From: Planctomycetota bacterium
Lineage (GTDB): Bacteria; Planctomycetota; Phycisphaerae; WQYP01
Length of the DNA stretch: 57,618 bases
NCBI GenBank assembly: GCA_021831565.1
Contig: JAKBMM010000012.1
Coordinates: 1-57,618, forward strand
Reading direction: 5' to 3'
A program made the translations under genes and the position numbers. Shown piece by piece: positions 124 through 20,855 of this stretch (position 1 is its first letter; each line of letters opens with the position of its first letter). The notes beneath the pieces were generated by a model, which was given only the letters and a program-made list of their open reading frames with translations, did no database searches and was not told where the DNA came from.

Positions 124-150
124 TTAGAGCCCATGCCGGAGAGGCTCTTA
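124..150. repeat. Palindromic element copy 1 (at glyA 3' end)
   Basis: AGAGCC (126-131) and GGCTCT (143-148) form a six-base inverted repeat around an 11-base centre containing CCGG. The TAA stop of glyA (150-148 on the minus strand) is the first part of this element, reading TAAGAGCC. It belongs to a family with copies at 17907, 39361 and 52074 and a half copy at 48185. It may also act as the glyA transcription end, although no T tract follows. Confidence 0.6.
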
Positions 151-1476
151 CGCATCGGACGGAACTTTCGAGAACGACTCCAGATTCCGTTCGCCCGCGA
201 TTGGTTCGCCCGGCAGGGCGACCGCCCGGCATTGCAGATGCGGCAGGGGAAATTGCCGGGCGAATTCGGCGACCTCGCCGCGGATTTTATCCAGCGCCGC
301 GGCCTGGCCGCCGCTGGAAGCGCCGCGATCCAGCCACGCGGCGACTTTTTTCATCTCCGGCTCCCGCAGGCCGCGGGTCGTCAGCGCCGGCGTTCCCAGG
401 CGTATGCCCGAAGTCTCCCGGGGCTGTCGTGTATCAAATGGAATCATATTTTTGTTTACAATAATACCGGCCGTCTGCAGCCACGATTCCACCGCCGCGC
501 CGGTCAGGTTCGGATCCTTGGCCCGCAGGTCGATGAGCATCAGGTGGTTGTCCGTGCCTCCGGAAACCAGCCGGTAACCGCGCCGTTGCAATTCCTCCGC
601 CAGCGCCTGGGCATTGCGGAGAATCTGCCGCGCATAGACTTTGAATTCCGGCTGCAGCGCCTCGCCGAACGCCGCCGCCTTGGCGGCGATGATGTGCATC
701 AGCGGCCCCCCTTGCAGGCCGGGAAACACCGCCGAATCTAGTTTCTTCGCCCACTCGGCCCCGCACATCGCCAAACCCGAACGCGGACCGCGCAGCGTCT
801 TGTGCGTGGTGGTGGTTACAAATTCCGCGTGCGGTATCGGCGAAGGGTGCAGCCCCGTCGCCACCAGGCCCGCAAAATGCGCGATGTCCGCCATCTGCAC
901 CGCGCCGACTTCATGCGCAATCTCGGCGAATGCCCCGAAGTCCCAAATCCGCGGATAGGCACTGGCGCCGGTGATGATAAGTTTGGGCTTGTGCGCACGG
1001 GCCAGGCGGCGCACTTCGGCCATGTCGATGCGTTCCGTTTTCGGATCCACACTGTAATGGAAGGCCTGAAACCACTTGCCCGAGAGATTGACTGATTTGC
1101 CGTGAGTCAAATGACCGCCGTGATCCAGGTGCAACCCCAGGATTGGATCACCCGGTTGCAACAGGGCCAGAAACACCGCCTGGTTGGCCTGCGATCCGGA
1201 GTGCGGCTGCACATTCACATGCGCGCAGCCAAAAAGCTTTTTGGCGCGGTCGCGGGCCAGGTTCTCCACGACGTCCACGAACTGGCACCCACCGTAGTAG
1301 CGTTTGCCCGGATAACCTTCCGCATATTTGTTCGTCAGCGGCGTGGCTGCCGCCGCCAGCACCGCCGGCGAGACGTGATTCTCGCTGGCAATAAGCTCCA
1401 GCGTCGATTCCTGGCGTTCCTGTTCATCACAAAGAGCCTGCCAGAGCGCCGGATCCGTCTGTTGAATCGGGTTCAT
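148..1476 (-). CDS. glyA: Serine hydroxymethyltransferase
   Basis: Cytosolic PLP enzyme that interconverts serine and glycine while loading a one-carbon unit onto tetrahydrofolate. The 442-residue product has family landmarks in order: LIASEN near residue 28, [13 protein letters not shown] at 51-63, the DIAHFAG block at 197-203, and the PLP-binding lysine K226 in TTTTHKT. The start was set at the second of two adjacent ATGs (1476), because a GGCGAGG ribosome site sits 6 bases upstream; an upstream ATG at 1524 would add 16 residues not typical of the family. The C-terminus is slightly long and its stop codon lies inside a palindromic repeat. It is transcribed away from its neighbours and supplies one-carbon units used by purine synthesis. 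Confidence 0.96.
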
Positions 1477-1530
1477 CATTCGCCTCGCCGGTTCGCAACT
1501 TCCGCCGCCGCAGCCGAAGTTCATGCACGG

Positions 1531-1558: not shown

Positions 1559-1647
1559 CACCAGGCGCCTCGTCTGTAATCTGTAAATGGTTGCTGTCGC
1601 TCCTCGCCGGATCGTCATAGAATCTTCTCCAGCAAGGAGAGGTTTTC

Positions 1648-2757
1648 ATGCGAATGTTGCTGACCGGGCAGGTGGGGTTGGACCGCCAGGCGTATCTGGA
1701 TGAAGTGGAGGCGATCGCCCGGGCCGCCGGCGAAAAGCTCAAAGTGTTTCATGTCGGGCAGATGATGTACCGCGAGGCGCGGGACGTGCAGCCCGGCCGG
1801 ATTCTGGATTTACCGCTCTGGCGGCTCAACAGCCTGCGGCGGGCGGTATTCCGGGACATTCTGGCCGAACTGCCCGGGCACCCGAATGTGATTGTCAATT
1901 CGCATGCGACATTTCGCTGGAAGCAGGGTTTATTTGCGGCATTTGACTTCGACCAGTTGGCCCAATTCCGCGCAGATATTTACGTAACTCTTCTGGATAA
2001 CGTACAGACCGTGCACCAACGGCTGATTCGAGACCACAACGTGGAACATTCGCTCAAAGACCTGATGGTGTGGCGCGAAGAGGAAATTCTGGCCACCGAA
2101 ATTCTGGCCAGAGTCGATCCCGTGCATCCGGGCGAGTTTTATGTACTGGCGCGCGGCCGGCATCAAAGCACGGCCATGACGCTATTCCGCCTGCTCTTAC
2201 GGCCCCGGATGCGCAAAGTTTATCCGAGTTTTCCCATGAGCCACGTGCTGGACCTGCCGCAGACGCAGAACGAAATCGACGAATTTCGTCGCCGCATGGC
2301 CGAGAGTTTCATCACTTTCGATCCCGGCGACGTGGATGAAAAGACTCTCCATGTCCGAGCCGTGGTGGCGGCAGCCGAGGGCCGGCAGACGATCTCCATT
2401 TCGCCAGACGATCATCATCCGCCCTTACGCACGGCGGAGATCATTTCCATTGGAGGCGACATCGACGGCCAGATTTGCGCCCGCGATTTCATGATGGTGC
2501 GGCAAAGCGACATGATCATTTCGTACATACCCCAATTACCCGGCGGCCGACCGGGTCTTTCCAGCGGTGTGGAGCGCGAGCTGCAGCACGCACACGACCA
2601 TGCGCGGGAAGTCTACGTGATCTGGCGGTCGAAAGCCGCGCCGAGTCCATTCATCACGCAGGCGGCGAGCAGGCTCTTTGGGAGTGTGGACGAGGCGATG
2701 GAATATTTCGCCGCCCAGGGGTATCTGGTCGCGCCCAATCTGTTTGATCAGGTATGA
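1648..2757 (+). CDS. Two-domain protein: degenerate archaeal-type adenylate kinase fused to a deoxyribosyltransferase-like domain
   Basis: 369 residues, preceded by a strong AAGGAGAGG site. The N-terminal half (about 1-200) follows the layout of archaeal-type adenylate kinases: a loop at residues 6-13 (TGQVGLDR), FHVGQMM at 34-40, VIVNSHATF at 81-89 (archaeal enzymes have VIVDTHAT) and a following DIYV strand. The P-loop lacks the G-K-S/T ending, so classic ATP binding is doubtful. The C-terminal part (about 265-350) has RDFMMVRQSD (279-288) and SSGVEREL (305-312), the pattern of nucleoside 2-deoxyribosyltransferase-like folds with a conserved Glu, then a predicted EVYVIW strand. It sits alone between glyA and eno. 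Function unknown; a role in nucleotide sensing or turnover is an inference from the two folds. Confidence 0.75.
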   Translation: MRMLLTGQVGLDRQAYLDEVEAIARAAGEKLKVFHVGQMMYREARDVQPGRILDLPLWRLNSLRRAVFRDILAELPGHPNVIVNSHATFRWKQGLFAAFDFDQLAQFRADIYVTLLDNVQTVHQRLIRDHNVEHSLKDLMVWREEEILATEILARVDPVHPGEFYVLARGRHQSTAMTLFRLLLRPRMRKVYPSFPMSHVLDLPQTQNEIDEFRRRMAESFITFDPGDVDEKTLHVRAVVAAAEGRQTISISPDDHHPPLRTAEIISIGGDIDGQICARDFMMVRQSDMIISYIPQLPGGRPGLSSGVERELQHAHDHAREVYVIWRSKAAPSPFITQAASRLFGSVDEAMEYFAAQGYLVAPNLFDQV

Positions 2758-2845: not shown

Positions 2846-4159
<1,314 letters not shown>

Positions 4160-4228: not shown

Positions 4229-7204
4229 ATGGCTGTTTACCGCATAGAGGTCCACCCGCTCCATTCCTCGGACGATCCCACTGGGGCCGCCGTATTGGCG
4301 GAAATCCGTCAGTTGGGGATGGCGGAGGTGCACGCGGTTCGCACCGCCCGCGTTTTTCTCCTCCAGGCGCCACCCGCGGCGCTGGGGGAAGAACAGGTCC
4401 GCCGTATTGCTCATGAATTGCTGTGCGATCCGGTCATCGAACGGCCCGTGCTTGGCCATGAAGCGCCGGGTTCGGGCCGATTGATTGAGGTTCACCTCAA
4501 GCCCGGCGTAATGGATCCGGTGGCCGCCAGCACGGAAATGGCCATCGGCGATCTGCTGGACATGTCCGCGACGAACGGTGAACCGGCCGTGCAGGTGCGC
4601 ACGGGGCGCCGGTACGTTCTTGCCGGCCACCTGACGGCTGACGCCGCCGCATTGATCGCCCGGCGACTGCTCGCCAATGAGAGCATTGAGCAAGTATATT
4701 TTGAACCTTTGGTTCCAAACGAATTTCCACAGGGCCGGTCCCGCGAATTCCGCCGCGTGGAAGTGCCCATTCGCACACTTTCACCGGAAGAACTTCAATC
4801 TCTCTCCCGACGGGGACATTTGTTTCTCGATCTGACGGAAATGCAGACCATCCAGAACTATTTTCGTTCTCTGGATCGCGATCCAACCGATGCGGAACTC
4901 GAAACGCTCGCCCAGAGCTGGAGCGAGCACTGCGTGCATAAAACGCTCAAGGCCCGCATTGAGTTTACGCACCATCCGGCGGCCGATGGCGCCGGCGACC
5001 ACCACGAACATCATGCGCCGGGCGACACGGTGCAAATCATCGACAACCTGGTCCAATCCACTATTTTTCGCGCCACCAGCGAGCTGGCCCGGCCCTGGAC
5101 GCTTAGTGTGTTCCGGGATAATGCCGGAGTCATGGCCTTCGATGACCAATACGCCGTGTGCATGAAGGTGGAAACGCACAACCGTCCCTCCGCCATCGAA
5201 CCTTACGGAGGGGCGGCCACCGGCATCGGCGGCTGCATCCGCGATGTATTGGGAACCGGCGGAGGCGCCCGCCCCATCGCCTGCACCGATATATTCTGTT
5301 TCGCCGATCCGCAAACGCCCGGCGAGCAACTTCCCGCCGGCGTCATCCACCCCCGCCGCATTGCCCAGCGCGTGGTGGCCGGGGTACGGGATTACGGCAA
5401 CCGCATGGGCATTCCCACTGTCAATGGCGCGATCTATTTCGATCAGCGTTATATCGGAAATCCACTGGTATTCTGCGGAACTCTGGGCATTCTCCCGCGC
5501 CACCTGGCCGCCAAGGGGGCGGCCCAGCCGGGTGATCATATTATTCTCATCGGCGGTCGCACGGGGCGCGATGGCATTCACGGCGCGACATTCTCCAGCG
5601 ACGTGGTAACCGATAAGCATGGAGACGAATTCAGCCATGCGGTACAGATAGGCAACGCCATCACGCAGAAGAAAATGCTCGACGTGCTTCTCCAGGCCCG
5701 TGATTGTTCCGGTGGGCCGCTGTACCACGCCATCACCGACTGCGGCGCCGGCGGGCTTTCCAGTGCGGTGGGGGAAATGGGCGAAAAAACCGGTGCCACG
5801 GTGGAACTGGATCGTGTACCACTGAAATACCAGGGGCTTGATTACGCCGAAATCTGGATCAGCGAAGCGCAGGAGCGCATGGTGCTGGCTGTGGCGCCGC
5901 GGAATGTTGCGCCGTTGCTGGAATTGGCCGCGGCCGAAGATGTTGAAGCAACGAACATCGGCGTATTCGACGGTTCGGGTCGGTTGACTTTGCATTACCA
6001 AGGGCACGTGGTGGCCGTTCTGGACATGAATTTCATTCACGGCGGGTTGCCGCGCCCCACGCGTAAAGCCGTGTGGCAGGAGCCGGTCCTAGCCGAAGCG
6101 CGCCGCGCCGAGATTAGTTCGCCGCGCGATTACGCCGCCACCTTGACATCCTTGCTGGCCACGCCCACCATCGCCAGCAAGCATTGGATCATCCGCCAAT
6201 ACGATCATGAAGTACAGGCCGCGACGGTACTTAAGCCCCTGGTGGGACCGGACGGCGATGGTCCCGGCGATGCCGCGGTGCTCTGTCCCGTTCCCGGGAG
6301 CCGGCGCGGGTTGGCGCTGGCCATCGGATGCCAACCTCGCTTCGGCGACATTGACCCCTATCAGATGGCGCTCAACGGCATTGATGAAGCCATTCGCAAC
6401 GTTGTCTGCGTGGGAGGCGACCCGGCCCACACGGCATTGCTGGATAATTTTTGCTGGCCCAAATGCTCGGATCCGATACACCTGGGCGCATTGGTTCTCG
6501 CCTGCCAGGCGTGTTATGACGGCGCCAAAGCCTTTGGTACGCCATTTATTTCCGGAAAAGATTCCCTTTCCAATGAATTCATTGCCGAAAACGGCCGCCG
6601 AATCTGTATTCCCTACACCCTGTTGATCAGCGCACTGAGCGTTGTGCCCGATGTTTCGCGCTGTGTCACCATGGACGCCAAGCAAGCCGGCGATCACCTG
6701 CTGATCGTCGGCAATACCGCCTGGGATATGGGCGGCTCGTATTACTGGGCGTTGGAGGGCCATTTGGGGCGCTGTGTTCCAAAAGTGAATCTCGCGACGG
6801 CTCCGCAGGTACATCGCATAGTCGCCGGGCTTATTCACCAAGGGCTTGTCCGCTGCGCCCATGATCTTTCCGAAGGCGGTCTGGCGGTGGCGTTGGCGGA
6901 AATGCTTTTTGCGGGCCGCTTGGGCGCCCGGGTGGATCTGGCCGCCGTTCCCCGCGCCCAAAACGCCGACGCCGATGATGTGCTGCTGTTTTCGGAATCG
7001 CCCACGCGCTACCTGCTGGAAGTCAGCGCCGAACATTTCGACACCGTGGTCCGTTCACTGCGCGGGCTGTGTTTTGGCGTTCTGGGCCGGATCACCGAGC
7101 AACCCAATCTGGTCATCCGTTCCGCCCATGCCGGTTATTTAATGGATGAACCCGTCGAAAATTTCCGCCGTGCCTGGCGGGGGCCTCTGGATTGGTCCGT
7201 TTGA
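4229..7204 (+). CDS. purL: Phosphoribosylformylglycinamidine synthase, PurS-PurL fusion
   Basis: Fourth step of purine synthesis: ATP-dependent amination of FGAR to FGAM. The 991-residue product begins with about 170 residues that look like PurS-type alpha/beta repeats, followed by the FGAM-synthase linker and the catalytic signature WSEHCVHK at 231-238. Two AIR-synthase-like halves follow ([23 protein letters not shown] in the first, SGKDSLSN in the second). The C-terminal glutaminase domain of the long proteobacterial enzyme is absent, so a separate PurQ should supply ammonia. The ribosome site is weak. The stop codon lies within the -35 box of the candidate ribosomal-protein promoter just downstream. 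Confidence 0.93.
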
Positions 7205-18501: not shown

Positions 18502-18741
18502 AGGTGCGTCCGCCGCGTCGCTGGGCGGGGAAAAGTGCGGGGTTTTTTGTGGTAACGATGTTGGGCGAGTCTCGACGCGACGGGATTTCACCCGAGAGAA
18601 CCTCCGCTTTTCAAGAATATCTATGGCGGCATGGGCGGCGGGTGGTTAAACTAACCGGATCGGTGGTGTGCTCCGAACCGCCGGCCATGATGGTGGATCC
18701 GGGGCATCGCCGCTCCCGTGCGGCAATCCAATGAGGCGCTC

Positions 18742-20196
18742 TTGTTCCGAAATCTGATCAACATTTTCCGCATACCCGAGCTTCGCAATAAGCTCCTGTT
18801 TACCATCGGCATGCTTTGCGTGTACCGCATCGGTTACTTCATTCCACTACCCGGAGTGAATACGCATGCCCTCAGCGCGTTTGTAAAAAACGCCGGATCT
18901 TCCGCGCTCGGCCAGATCAGCAACTACCTGTCGCTGTTTTCCGGCGGCAACCTCGGGTTGAGCACCATCTTCGGACTGGGCATCATGCCCTATATCAGCG
19001 CCGCGATCATCTTCCAGCTTCTGGGCACCGTGATTCCCTCCCTGGAAAAGCTCCAGAAAGAGGGCGAACCAGGTATGCGGAAAATCAACGAATGGACGCG
19101 CTACGCCACAGTCGGTCTGTGCGTAATCCAGGCTGTGGTCTGGCTGCGGTATCTGACCTCGTCTTCGCGCTCTTTTCCCCATGGTTTTCTGTATGCCAAC
19201 ACCTACTACAACCATCTGACGCTTTTCTGGATCACGGGTCTGGCGGCCATGACCGCCGGCAGTATTTTCCTGATGTGGCTGGGTGAACAGATCGATGAGT
19301 ACGGCATCGGCAATGGTGTTTCGCTGATCATCATGGCCAGCATTGTGGCCCAGATGCCCAGCGCGGTATACGGTTTATATAAACATTCGTCCTTCCGCGT
19401 GGCTGGTTCGGAAACCCATCGCTACGGCGTCGGAACGATTTTATTTCTGGCCGCCGCCTTCGTGTGCGTTTCCGCCGGCGCGATCATCCTGGAGCAGGCG
19501 CAGCGCCGCATCGGCATTCAACAGGCCAAGCACATCCGCGGCAATCGCGTCTATGGGGGACAGACCCAGTACCTGCCTCTGCGCGTGAATCACGGCGGCG
19601 TGATGCCGATCATCTTCGCCAGCTCGCTGATGTTGATCCCCAATGTGATTCTCCAGTGGCTTACGCCGGGCCTGGCGCGGTTCGGCCTGTTTTTCACGTT
19701 GCGCGACGCCCTGGAACCGGGGCACTATATATATGTTATTTTATATATTATATTGATCTTCTTCTTTTCCTACTTCTGGAACACGGTTCAGTTTCGCCCC
19801 AAGGAAATGGCTGATCAGTTGCGTGATTACGGCAGTTTCATCAAGGGTTTGCGGCCCGGCAAACGCACCGCCGAGTATCTCGAAAACGTCATGACCCGCA
19901 TCACCTACTGCGGCGCCGCCTTCCTGGCTGTTATCGCCCTGGTGCCCACCGTGGTCTCGCGCTATATGAACGTCAACTTCATGATTACCCAGTTTCTCGG
20001 CGGCACCGGTTTGCTGATCGTCGTGAGCGTCCTTCTTGACTTCATCAATCGCGTGGAGGCAAATCTCATCATGCGGAACTACGGCGGCTTGCTGGAGCCG
20101 GAATCCTCCCAGGCCGCGCGCCGCAGGCCGGCGACCCGGCCGGACGTACCCTCCTCCCGCCTGGGTTCCGACCAGGTTAAAGGATCCGCGGCATGA
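18742..20196 (+). CDS. secY: Protein translocase subunit SecY
   Basis: Inner-membrane channel of the Sec system. 484 residues if started at the TTG 18742, which gives MFRNLINIFRIPELRNK, the usual N-terminus, and has TGAGG five bases upstream; a GTG at 18718 would add eight residues but has no ribosome site. Ten hydrophobic segments and motifs RIGYFIPLPGV, LGIMPYISAAIIFQLL and GNRVYGGQTQYLPLRVNHGGVMPIIFASS are visible. The segment at 19726-19765 is unusually A/T-rich. The stop overlaps the adk ATG by 4 bases. Confidence 0.96.
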   Translation: MFRNLINIFRIPELRNKLLFTIGMLCVYRIGYFIPLPGVNTHALSAFVKNAGSSALGQISNYLSLFSGGNLGLSTIFGLGIMPYISAAIIFQLLGTVIPSLEKLQKEGEPGMRKINEWTRYATVGLCVIQAVVWLRYLTSSSRSFPHGFLYANTYYNHLTLFWITGLAAMTAGSIFLMWLGEQIDEYGIGNGVSLIIMASIVAQMPSAVYGLYKHSSFRVAGSETHRYGVGTILFLAAAFVCVSAGAIILEQAQRRIGIQQAKHIRGNRVYGGQTQYLPLRVNHGGVMPIIFASSLMLIPNVILQWLTPGLARFGLFFTLRDALEPGHYIYVILYIILIFFFSYFWNTVQFRPKEMADQLRDYGSFIKGLRPGKRTAEYLENVMTRITYCGAAFLAVIALVPTVVSRYMNVNFMITQFLGGTGLLIVVSVLLDFINRVEANLIMRNYGGLLEPESSQAARRRPATRPDVPSSRLGSDQVKGSAA

Positions 20197-20855
20197 GAAT
20201 CGCCCTGCTGGGTCCGCCGGGCGCGGGCAAGGGCACGCAGGCCGCGCGCATCTGCCAGACGTTTCATCTGATTCATTTTTCCAGCGGCGACATTCTGCGA
20301 GCGGAGAAGATGTTTGGCACTTCGCTCGGCCGCCGCATCCGCGATTTCATCGACAATGGTCTGCTTGTCCCCGACGATCTGATGATCCAGATTATGGAGC
20401 AACGCGTATTGGCCGCGCGGGATGGATTTGTTCTGGATGGCTATCCCAGGACATTGCCGCAATCCCAGGCGCTCAAGCGCATTCTCCAGGCGGCGGACAT
20501 GCCGCTCGACTTGGTGCTCAATTTTGTCGTGGATCCAAAAGTACTGGCCCGGCGCTTCGAGGGCCGCAGAATCTGCCCGGTATGTCTGGCGGTGTATCAC
20601 GTGGATACCATGCCGTCAAAAATTCCCGGCGTCTGCGATCACGACTCTCACGAATTGATTATCCGGCAGGATGACATGCCCGACGTGGTCCGCAAGCGGA
20701 TCGAAACGTACCAAGAGAGTATGGCGCCGTTATTCGCCTATTACGCCCAACAGGGAGATTTCAAAACCATCGACGCCTCCGGTTCCGTCGACGATGTCAC
20801 GCGGGTTGTCTTAGATAAAATACGCCGCCATTTTGAGGCGGCGACGGCGTCCTGA
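20193..20855 (+). CDS. adk: Adenylate kinase, zinc-lid type
   Basis: Cytosolic enzyme balancing ATP, ADP and AMP. 220 residues; P-loop GPPGAGKGT at 7-15, SSGDILR at 30-36, LDGYPRT at 81-87. The LID carries C128, C131, C148 and D151, the three-Cys-one-Asp zinc set known from Bacillus subtilis, in place of four cysteines. Translation is probably coupled to secY through an ATGA overlap, as in many spc operons. No map, infA or rpsM follows; the next gene is on the other strand. Confidence 0.97.
   Translation: MRIALLGPPGAGKGTQAARICQTFHLIHFSSGDILRAEKMFGTSLGRRIRDFIDNGLLVPDDLMIQIMEQRVLAARDGFVLDGYPRTLPQSQALKRILQAADMPLDLVLNFVVDPKVLARRFEGRRICPVCLAVYHVDTMPSKIPGVCDHDSHELIIRQDDMPDVVRKRIETYQESMAPLFAYYAQQGDFKTIDASGSVDDVTRVVLDKIRRHFEAATAS

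Follow-up and report, generated by a model that had tools for sequence, protein, structure and literature searches.

The window analysed here, a stretch of 57,618 nucleotides from a Phycisphaerae contig, carries a gene for a two-domain protein located between glyA, which lies upstream on the opposite strand, and eno and purL, which follow on the same strand (Table 1). The sequence-only reading of this DNA had placed the gene and its neighbours correctly and had noted a strong ribosome site, seen here as AAGGAG. The motifs that it quoted are all present in the protein, namely FHVGQMM (residues 34-40), VIVNSHATF (81-89), RDFMMVRQSD (279-288) and GVEREL (307-312). GGAG-type sites also precede the start of the gene in several relatives, and the comparison of one close pair (dN 0.016, dS 0.18) indicates purifying selection. 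The two-domain arrangement is real and goes beyond chance, as set out below for each half of the protein.

Table 1 Features of the fusion gene, its surroundings and related loci. Positions are those of the window unless a locus is named.
Feature	Position	Strand	Basis or remark
glyA	148-1524	-	Upstream neighbour
Shine-Dalgarno-like AAGGAG	1634-1639	+	8 nt 5' of the ATG
Two-domain protein gene, 369 aa	1648-2757	+	ORF; ATG at 1648, stop ending 2757
N-domain, aa 1-185, archaeal adenylate kinase (AdkA) fold	1648-2202	+	AlphaFold2 model, Foldseek, profile search
Altered P-loop TGQVGLDR, aa 6-13	1663-1686	+	Alignments; consensus TGQ[VI]Gx[DE][KR], no Ser/Thr after Lys/Arg
N[ST]HATFRW, aa 84-91	1897-1920	+	Counterpart of AdkA D-T-H-A segment, Asp to Asn
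C-domain, aa 186-369, DNPH1/NDT-type N-glycosidase fold	2203-2754	+	Model, Foldseek, sub-cut-off PF05014
Y192	2221-2223	+	Position of DNPH1 Y24 / MilB F17 (sugar specificity); invariant 121/121
D280 (RDF)	2485-2487	+	Position of DNPH1 general acid D80 by motif alignment; invariant 121/121
S305	2560-2562	+	Position of phosphate-binding S98 (DNPH1) / S97 (MilB); Asp in NDTs; invariant 121/121
E311	2578-2580	+	Position of nucleophile Glu (DNPH1 E104); aligned to NDT nucleophile Glu; invariant 121/121
eno	2867-4159	+	Downstream neighbour
purL	4229-7204	+	Downstream of eno
secY	18718-20196		Directly 5' of adk
Canonical adk	20193-20855	+	Separate from the fusion gene
Fusion copy outside the class (L031)	G275:C466:5320-6417		56% identity
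RpiB-DeoC fusion	L283:4935-6509	-	Pfam LacAB_rpiB + DeoC
RpiB-DeoC fusion	L284:4950-6443	-	Pfam LacAB_rpiB + DeoC
RpiB-DeoC fusion	L291:4173-5705	+	Pfam LacAB_rpiB + DeoC

In the predicted model, the N-terminal domain adopts the fold of the archaeal adenylate kinases. The full-length AlphaFold2 model, built from an alignment of 30 members, reached a pLDDT of 87.5 and a pTM of 0.87, and in a Foldseek search against the PDB the top-ranking matches were archaeal adenylate kinases throughout (6ln3 with E 6e-8 and a TM of 0.77 on the target). Profile searches gave the same assignment: the N-domain profile matches Aeropyrum AdkA 6ln3 at 4e-10, Pfam AAA_17 matches 30 of 30 family members (best 1.4e-14), and the NCBIfam archaeal adk model is also matched by all 30, with a best value of 1.8e-9 that stays under its curated cut-off. 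These matches bear out the AdkA plan that had been read from the letters of this half, and many core positions are shared with the AdkA structures 6ln3, 1nks and 7owe.

Several motifs of AdkA, in contrast, are altered. Instead of the P-loop GxPGxGK[ST]T (or GxPGxGGTT), nearly all of the 121 homologues carry TGQ[VI]Gx[DE][KR], and the acidic position varies in a few of them. The loss of GK[ST], first noticed in the single protein of the window, is uniform across the family: the motif occurs in none of the 121 aligned homologues, so that no sampled relative has it restored, and Thr occupies the Ser/Thr position in one member only, where the Gly is missing. Lys or Arg is retained at position 13. 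The Asp of the DTHA segment, which belongs to the NMP site, has become Asn, and RDHxxDHTLKD stands where AdkA has the LID arginine pattern RDxTRxRD. Residues N84, H86, R90, K137, D138 and W142-E146 (WREEE) are invariant. Taken together, the invariant residues and the altered P-loop, DTHA and LID segments argue that strong selection acts on the domain, though in some capacity other than that of an ordinary adenylate kinase. Judged from its residues, the P-loop looks unfit for ordinary ATP-dependent phosphoryl transfer; however, methanococcal AdkAs align with GVPGVGGTT, which has no lysine, and a non-standard P-loop is therefore by itself no proof of inactivity.

A canonical adk (20205-20756, inside the interval given in Table 1) and a tmk are both present in the source genome; hence the cell does not depend on the N-domain alone for NMP kinase activity. 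A role as the housekeeping adenylate or thymidylate kinase was ruled out, with separate adk and tmk genes in 23 of the 23 genomes tested. The canonical adk of the window lies directly 3' of secY, apparently within a ribosomal-protein gene region. In some members of the class (G030, G039, G410, G424, G440 and G350) the PF00406 match to adk is shorter than in other members (about 480 bp instead of about 550 bp) and scores more weakly, as if these enzymes were LID-less, short-type adenylate kinases.

The C-terminal domain, which had been placed from residue 240 onwards, starts at about residue 186 instead. Modelled alone (pLDDT 87.7), it shows the fold of DNPH1 (RCL), a 2'-deoxynucleoside 5'-phosphate N-hydrolase, and of the nucleoside 2-deoxyribosyltransferases (NDTs). 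Human DNPH1 occupies ranks 1, 2, 4, 5 and 8 of the Foldseek search (E 1e-4 to 6e-4, TM 0.61-0.70 on the target), with 8rpt and 8rqd as the best PDB matches (E 1e-4), followed by NDTs (E below 0.001), YtoQ and the CMP N-glycosidase BcmB. Neither Pfam nor NCBIfam has a model that the C-domain matches above cut-off, and the whole protein matches only a generic AAA domain. Matches under the cut-off to the NDT family PF05014 were obtained for 7 of the 10 C-domains tested and for further members (best 16.4 bits against a cut-off of 28.8), and this was the top family for every C-domain that gave any match. A profile comparison with 12 planctomycete NDTs scored 19.3 and beat all 100 column-shuffled controls (at most 16.9), pairing SSGVEREL with DSGTxxEx. 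Because the similarity stays under the Pfam cut-off and the hhalign probability in this comparison is only about 1.5%, the DNPH1/NDT assignment leans on the predicted structure. Fold prediction and search support the deoxyribosyltransferase-like partner that the sequence-only reading had suggested, and they recover two folds rather than a single known enzyme; within the nucleotide-cleaving superfamily, however, the domain lies nearer to the DNPH1 hydrolase than to the classical NDTs.

This closer relationship is reflected in the residues expected at the active site. The Tyr, Asp, Ser and Glu positions of DNPH1 are occupied by Y192, D280, S305 and E311, matched by motif alignment rather than by structural superposition, with D280 placed at D80 by the DNPH1 motif. 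Besides being fixed across the whole set of homologues (Table 1), all four are invariant in the 52 homologues that share less than 80% identity, and the spacing from S305 to E311 is six residues, as from S98 to E104 in DNPH1. DNPH1 itself is a homodimer whose active site is completed by the partner chain. Its important active-site positions are Y24, D80, S98 and E104, the last being the nucleophile (PMC10603095), and those reported for the rat enzyme include Ser87 and Glu93 (PMC3834327). Tyr as opposed to Phe at the position of DNPH1 Y24 and MilB F17 has been tied to deoxyribose preference (PMC10603095). NDTs share the fold superfamily, and their nucleophile Glu and Y-x-x-x-P motif align with the Phycisphaerae protein; in contrast, the position of S305, close to that Glu, is occupied by the Asp of their DxG motif, which is invariant in the 12 NDTs compared. 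Ser at 305 is the state of DNPH1 and MilB, in which this residue binds a 5'-phosphate, and Asp is the NDT state. The agreement with DNPH1 in fold and in the four positions, together with the departures from AdkA and from NDTs, suggests that the protein works like DNPH1 fused to a pseudo-kinase-like domain. Unlike the stand-alone human and rat enzymes, it has a loop about seven residues longer before the Ser and another base-recognition segment.

The fusion gene is nearly universal in the class. A class-wide profile search detected it in 271 of 296 Phycisphaerae genomes (253 of the 277 good ones), mostly as a single copy, and homologues are present in 50 of 61 relatives from the class. The second copies found in a few genomes keep the same key residues except for one Asp-to-Asn change at position 225. 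An apparent split of the two domains in one genome (G530) is not a natural one, since a scaffold gap of 100 N interrupts the gene there. Among the best 80 of 423 relatives from a separate collection, the named records mostly carry the label Phycisphaerae, Phycisphaerales or Planctomycetota. Among Planctomycetota outside the class only one match was obtained, in a genome (G275) that SecY places outside Phycisphaerae; the copy lies on a 6.6-kb contig of an assembly of 1,020 contigs, which makes mis-binning or transfer the likely explanation and a genuine carrier outside the class doubtful. The scan of genome contigs used two exact motifs and an upper limit on the matches, so that distant relatives in other phyla could escape it. 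Plasmids, phages and viral contigs yielded no relatives, and the viral structure library no credible two-domain match; a viral, plasmid or phage origin was ruled out on these grounds. In the SecY tree, families f2 and f11 are basal in the class. The gene looks to have been gained after they split off and lost in f9, f13 and f107, a history of few changes in which some branches are weak.

Genes flanking the fusion gene are mostly scrambled, with no neighbour cluster exceeding 19 of 80 loci. This excludes a conserved glyA/eno/purL operon, and since other members of the class have different neighbours here, the context seen in the window is uninformative. An unbiased survey of 60 loci from many families returned a single neighbour shared by at least three families: deoC, which encodes deoxyribose-5-phosphate aldolase (TIGR00126, 197-230 bits against a cut-off of 117). 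The linkage occurs in families f8, f12, f16 and f106, where deoC is always downstream on the same strand. In 10 genomes drawn from these four families (including L037, L038 and G530) it follows directly, at a distance of up to about 225 bp, and it lies 2-2.6 kb from the fusion gene in two others (G477 and G395). In most families, that of the source genome included, deoC is far from the fusion gene. In family f15 (G048:C4, L290), deoC lies about 3.4 kb away on the opposite strand, possibly as a relic of the linkage.

The two genes also co-occur across genomes. Of the 31 genomes that carry the fusion gene, 30 have a deoC above the cut-off, versus 3 of the 12 that lack it (Fisher p 3.6e-6, phylogeny ignored). 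The three deoC-positive genomes that lack the fusion gene belong to the basal families f2 and f11, which apparently never possessed it, and in the lineages of apparent loss (f9, f13 and f107) none of the 8 genomes tested has a deoC above the cut-off either. In f13 and f107 this co-loss could be one block deletion of two adjacent genes. COX1 correlates with the fusion gene as well (11 of 12 versus 2 of 11). A link to aerobic respiration was nevertheless ruled out: an f16 genome (G058) has no COX1 yet keeps the fusion gene and deoC, and an f9 genome (G035) has COX1 and lacks both, so that the gene tracks deoC in these families.

We consider it probable that the protein is a 2'-deoxynucleoside 5'-monophosphate N-hydrolase that feeds DeoC and carries a non-canonical, AdkA-derived nucleotide-binding module. 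Under this prediction, the C-domain would bind a (deoxy)nucleoside 5'-monophosphate, with S305 and the backbone near G307 holding the phosphate. D280 would protonate the base while E311 attacks C1' to form a glycosyl-enzyme, which water would then hydrolyse, releasing the free base and 2-deoxyribose 5-phosphate. The latter would be cleaved by DeoC into glyceraldehyde 3-phosphate and acetaldehyde, which would enter central metabolism. The N-domain would most likely select or deliver the nucleotide, or gate the hydrolase. The predicted role of the fused enzyme is deoxynucleotide breakdown or pool cleaning. A bolder version is put forward tentatively, and we find it rather doubtful: deoxynucleotide catabolism by a single protein specific to Phycisphaerae, in which the AdkA-derived domain, its P-loop rewired, would capture or activate the nucleotide while the DNPH1-like domain would supply deoxyribose 5-phosphate directly to DeoC, bypassing deoD, deoA and deoB (phosphorylase/phosphopentomutase).

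A true bifunctional enzyme, whose N-domain phosphorylates, for example, a (deoxy)nucleoside or nucleotide through the variant P-loop and whose C-domain cleaves the product, would fit the retained Lys/Arg at position 13, the tolerance of archaeal adenylate kinases for P-loop variation seen in the methanococcal proteins, and the invariant N-domain residues, which suggest an active site still under selection. We regard it as unlikely, given that an acidic residue replaces the P-loop Gly, that the Mg-binding Ser/Thr is missing and that the LID arginines are replaced. Another substrate for the C-domain also has to be weighed. MilB, BcmB and BlsM are CMP N-glycosidases that share the Ser and the nucleophile Glu with the Phycisphaerae protein, and BcmB is among its fold matches; the acidic segment FDPGDVDEK, which is conserved, might serve to recognise an amino base in the manner of MilB E62 (PMC10603095). 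A ribonucleotide hydrolase of this kind, acting for example on CMP, or a base-exchanging transferase, is nonetheless quite improbable: residue 192 is Tyr throughout, matching the deoxy-specific DNPH1, and MilB, which acts on ribonucleotides, has Phe there (PMC10603095, PMC4081090); the linkage to deoC implies a deoxyribose product; and the Ser found at the position of the NDT Asp argues against nucleoside base exchange.

A nucleotide sensor or regulator, in which both domains bind ligand without catalysis and signal nucleotide status, would account for the altered P-loop. The NDT-like fold has relatives among signalling folds, TIR for instance, and a TIR-annotated viral protein is among the matches in the viral structure library. 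Such a role appears very unlikely, however, since the residues at the hydrolase positions are all invariant and the protein contains no DNA-binding or effector domain. The sequence-only reading had left open whether the protein senses, binds or degrades a nucleotide; the deoC linkage suggests metabolism and favours deoxynucleotide degradation over sensing.

No precedent for an AdkA-hydrolase fusion was found in the literature searched. The Zobellia galactanivorans HGPRT/adenylate kinase also joins an adenylate kinase-type domain to an enzyme that works on the bond between base and sugar, but its partner is a phosphoribosyltransferase and the protein is reported to be a bifunctional catalyst (PMC7326950). 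If the proposed hydrolase activity is correct, a gene present in nearly all members of a bacterial class, hitherto without specific annotation, would encode a bacterial equivalent of DNPH1, which in humans sanitises the nucleotide pool, offer an example of a kinase fold repurposed beside a glycosidase, and provide a direct link from nucleotides to DeoC.

A different arrangement of deoC is observed in families f3 and f14, where it is fused behind an RpiB-type isomerase domain through a cysteine-rich linker (Table 1). At one of these loci (L283) the fused gene adjoins a transporter-like gene, and its surroundings show no obvious gene for a microcompartment shell. A similar aldolase-isomerase fusion is on record for a type of microcompartment to which the degradation of deoxyribose 5-phosphate has been ascribed (PMC4207490). 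The RpiB-fused deoC of f3 and f14 may serve a separate role or another pathway.
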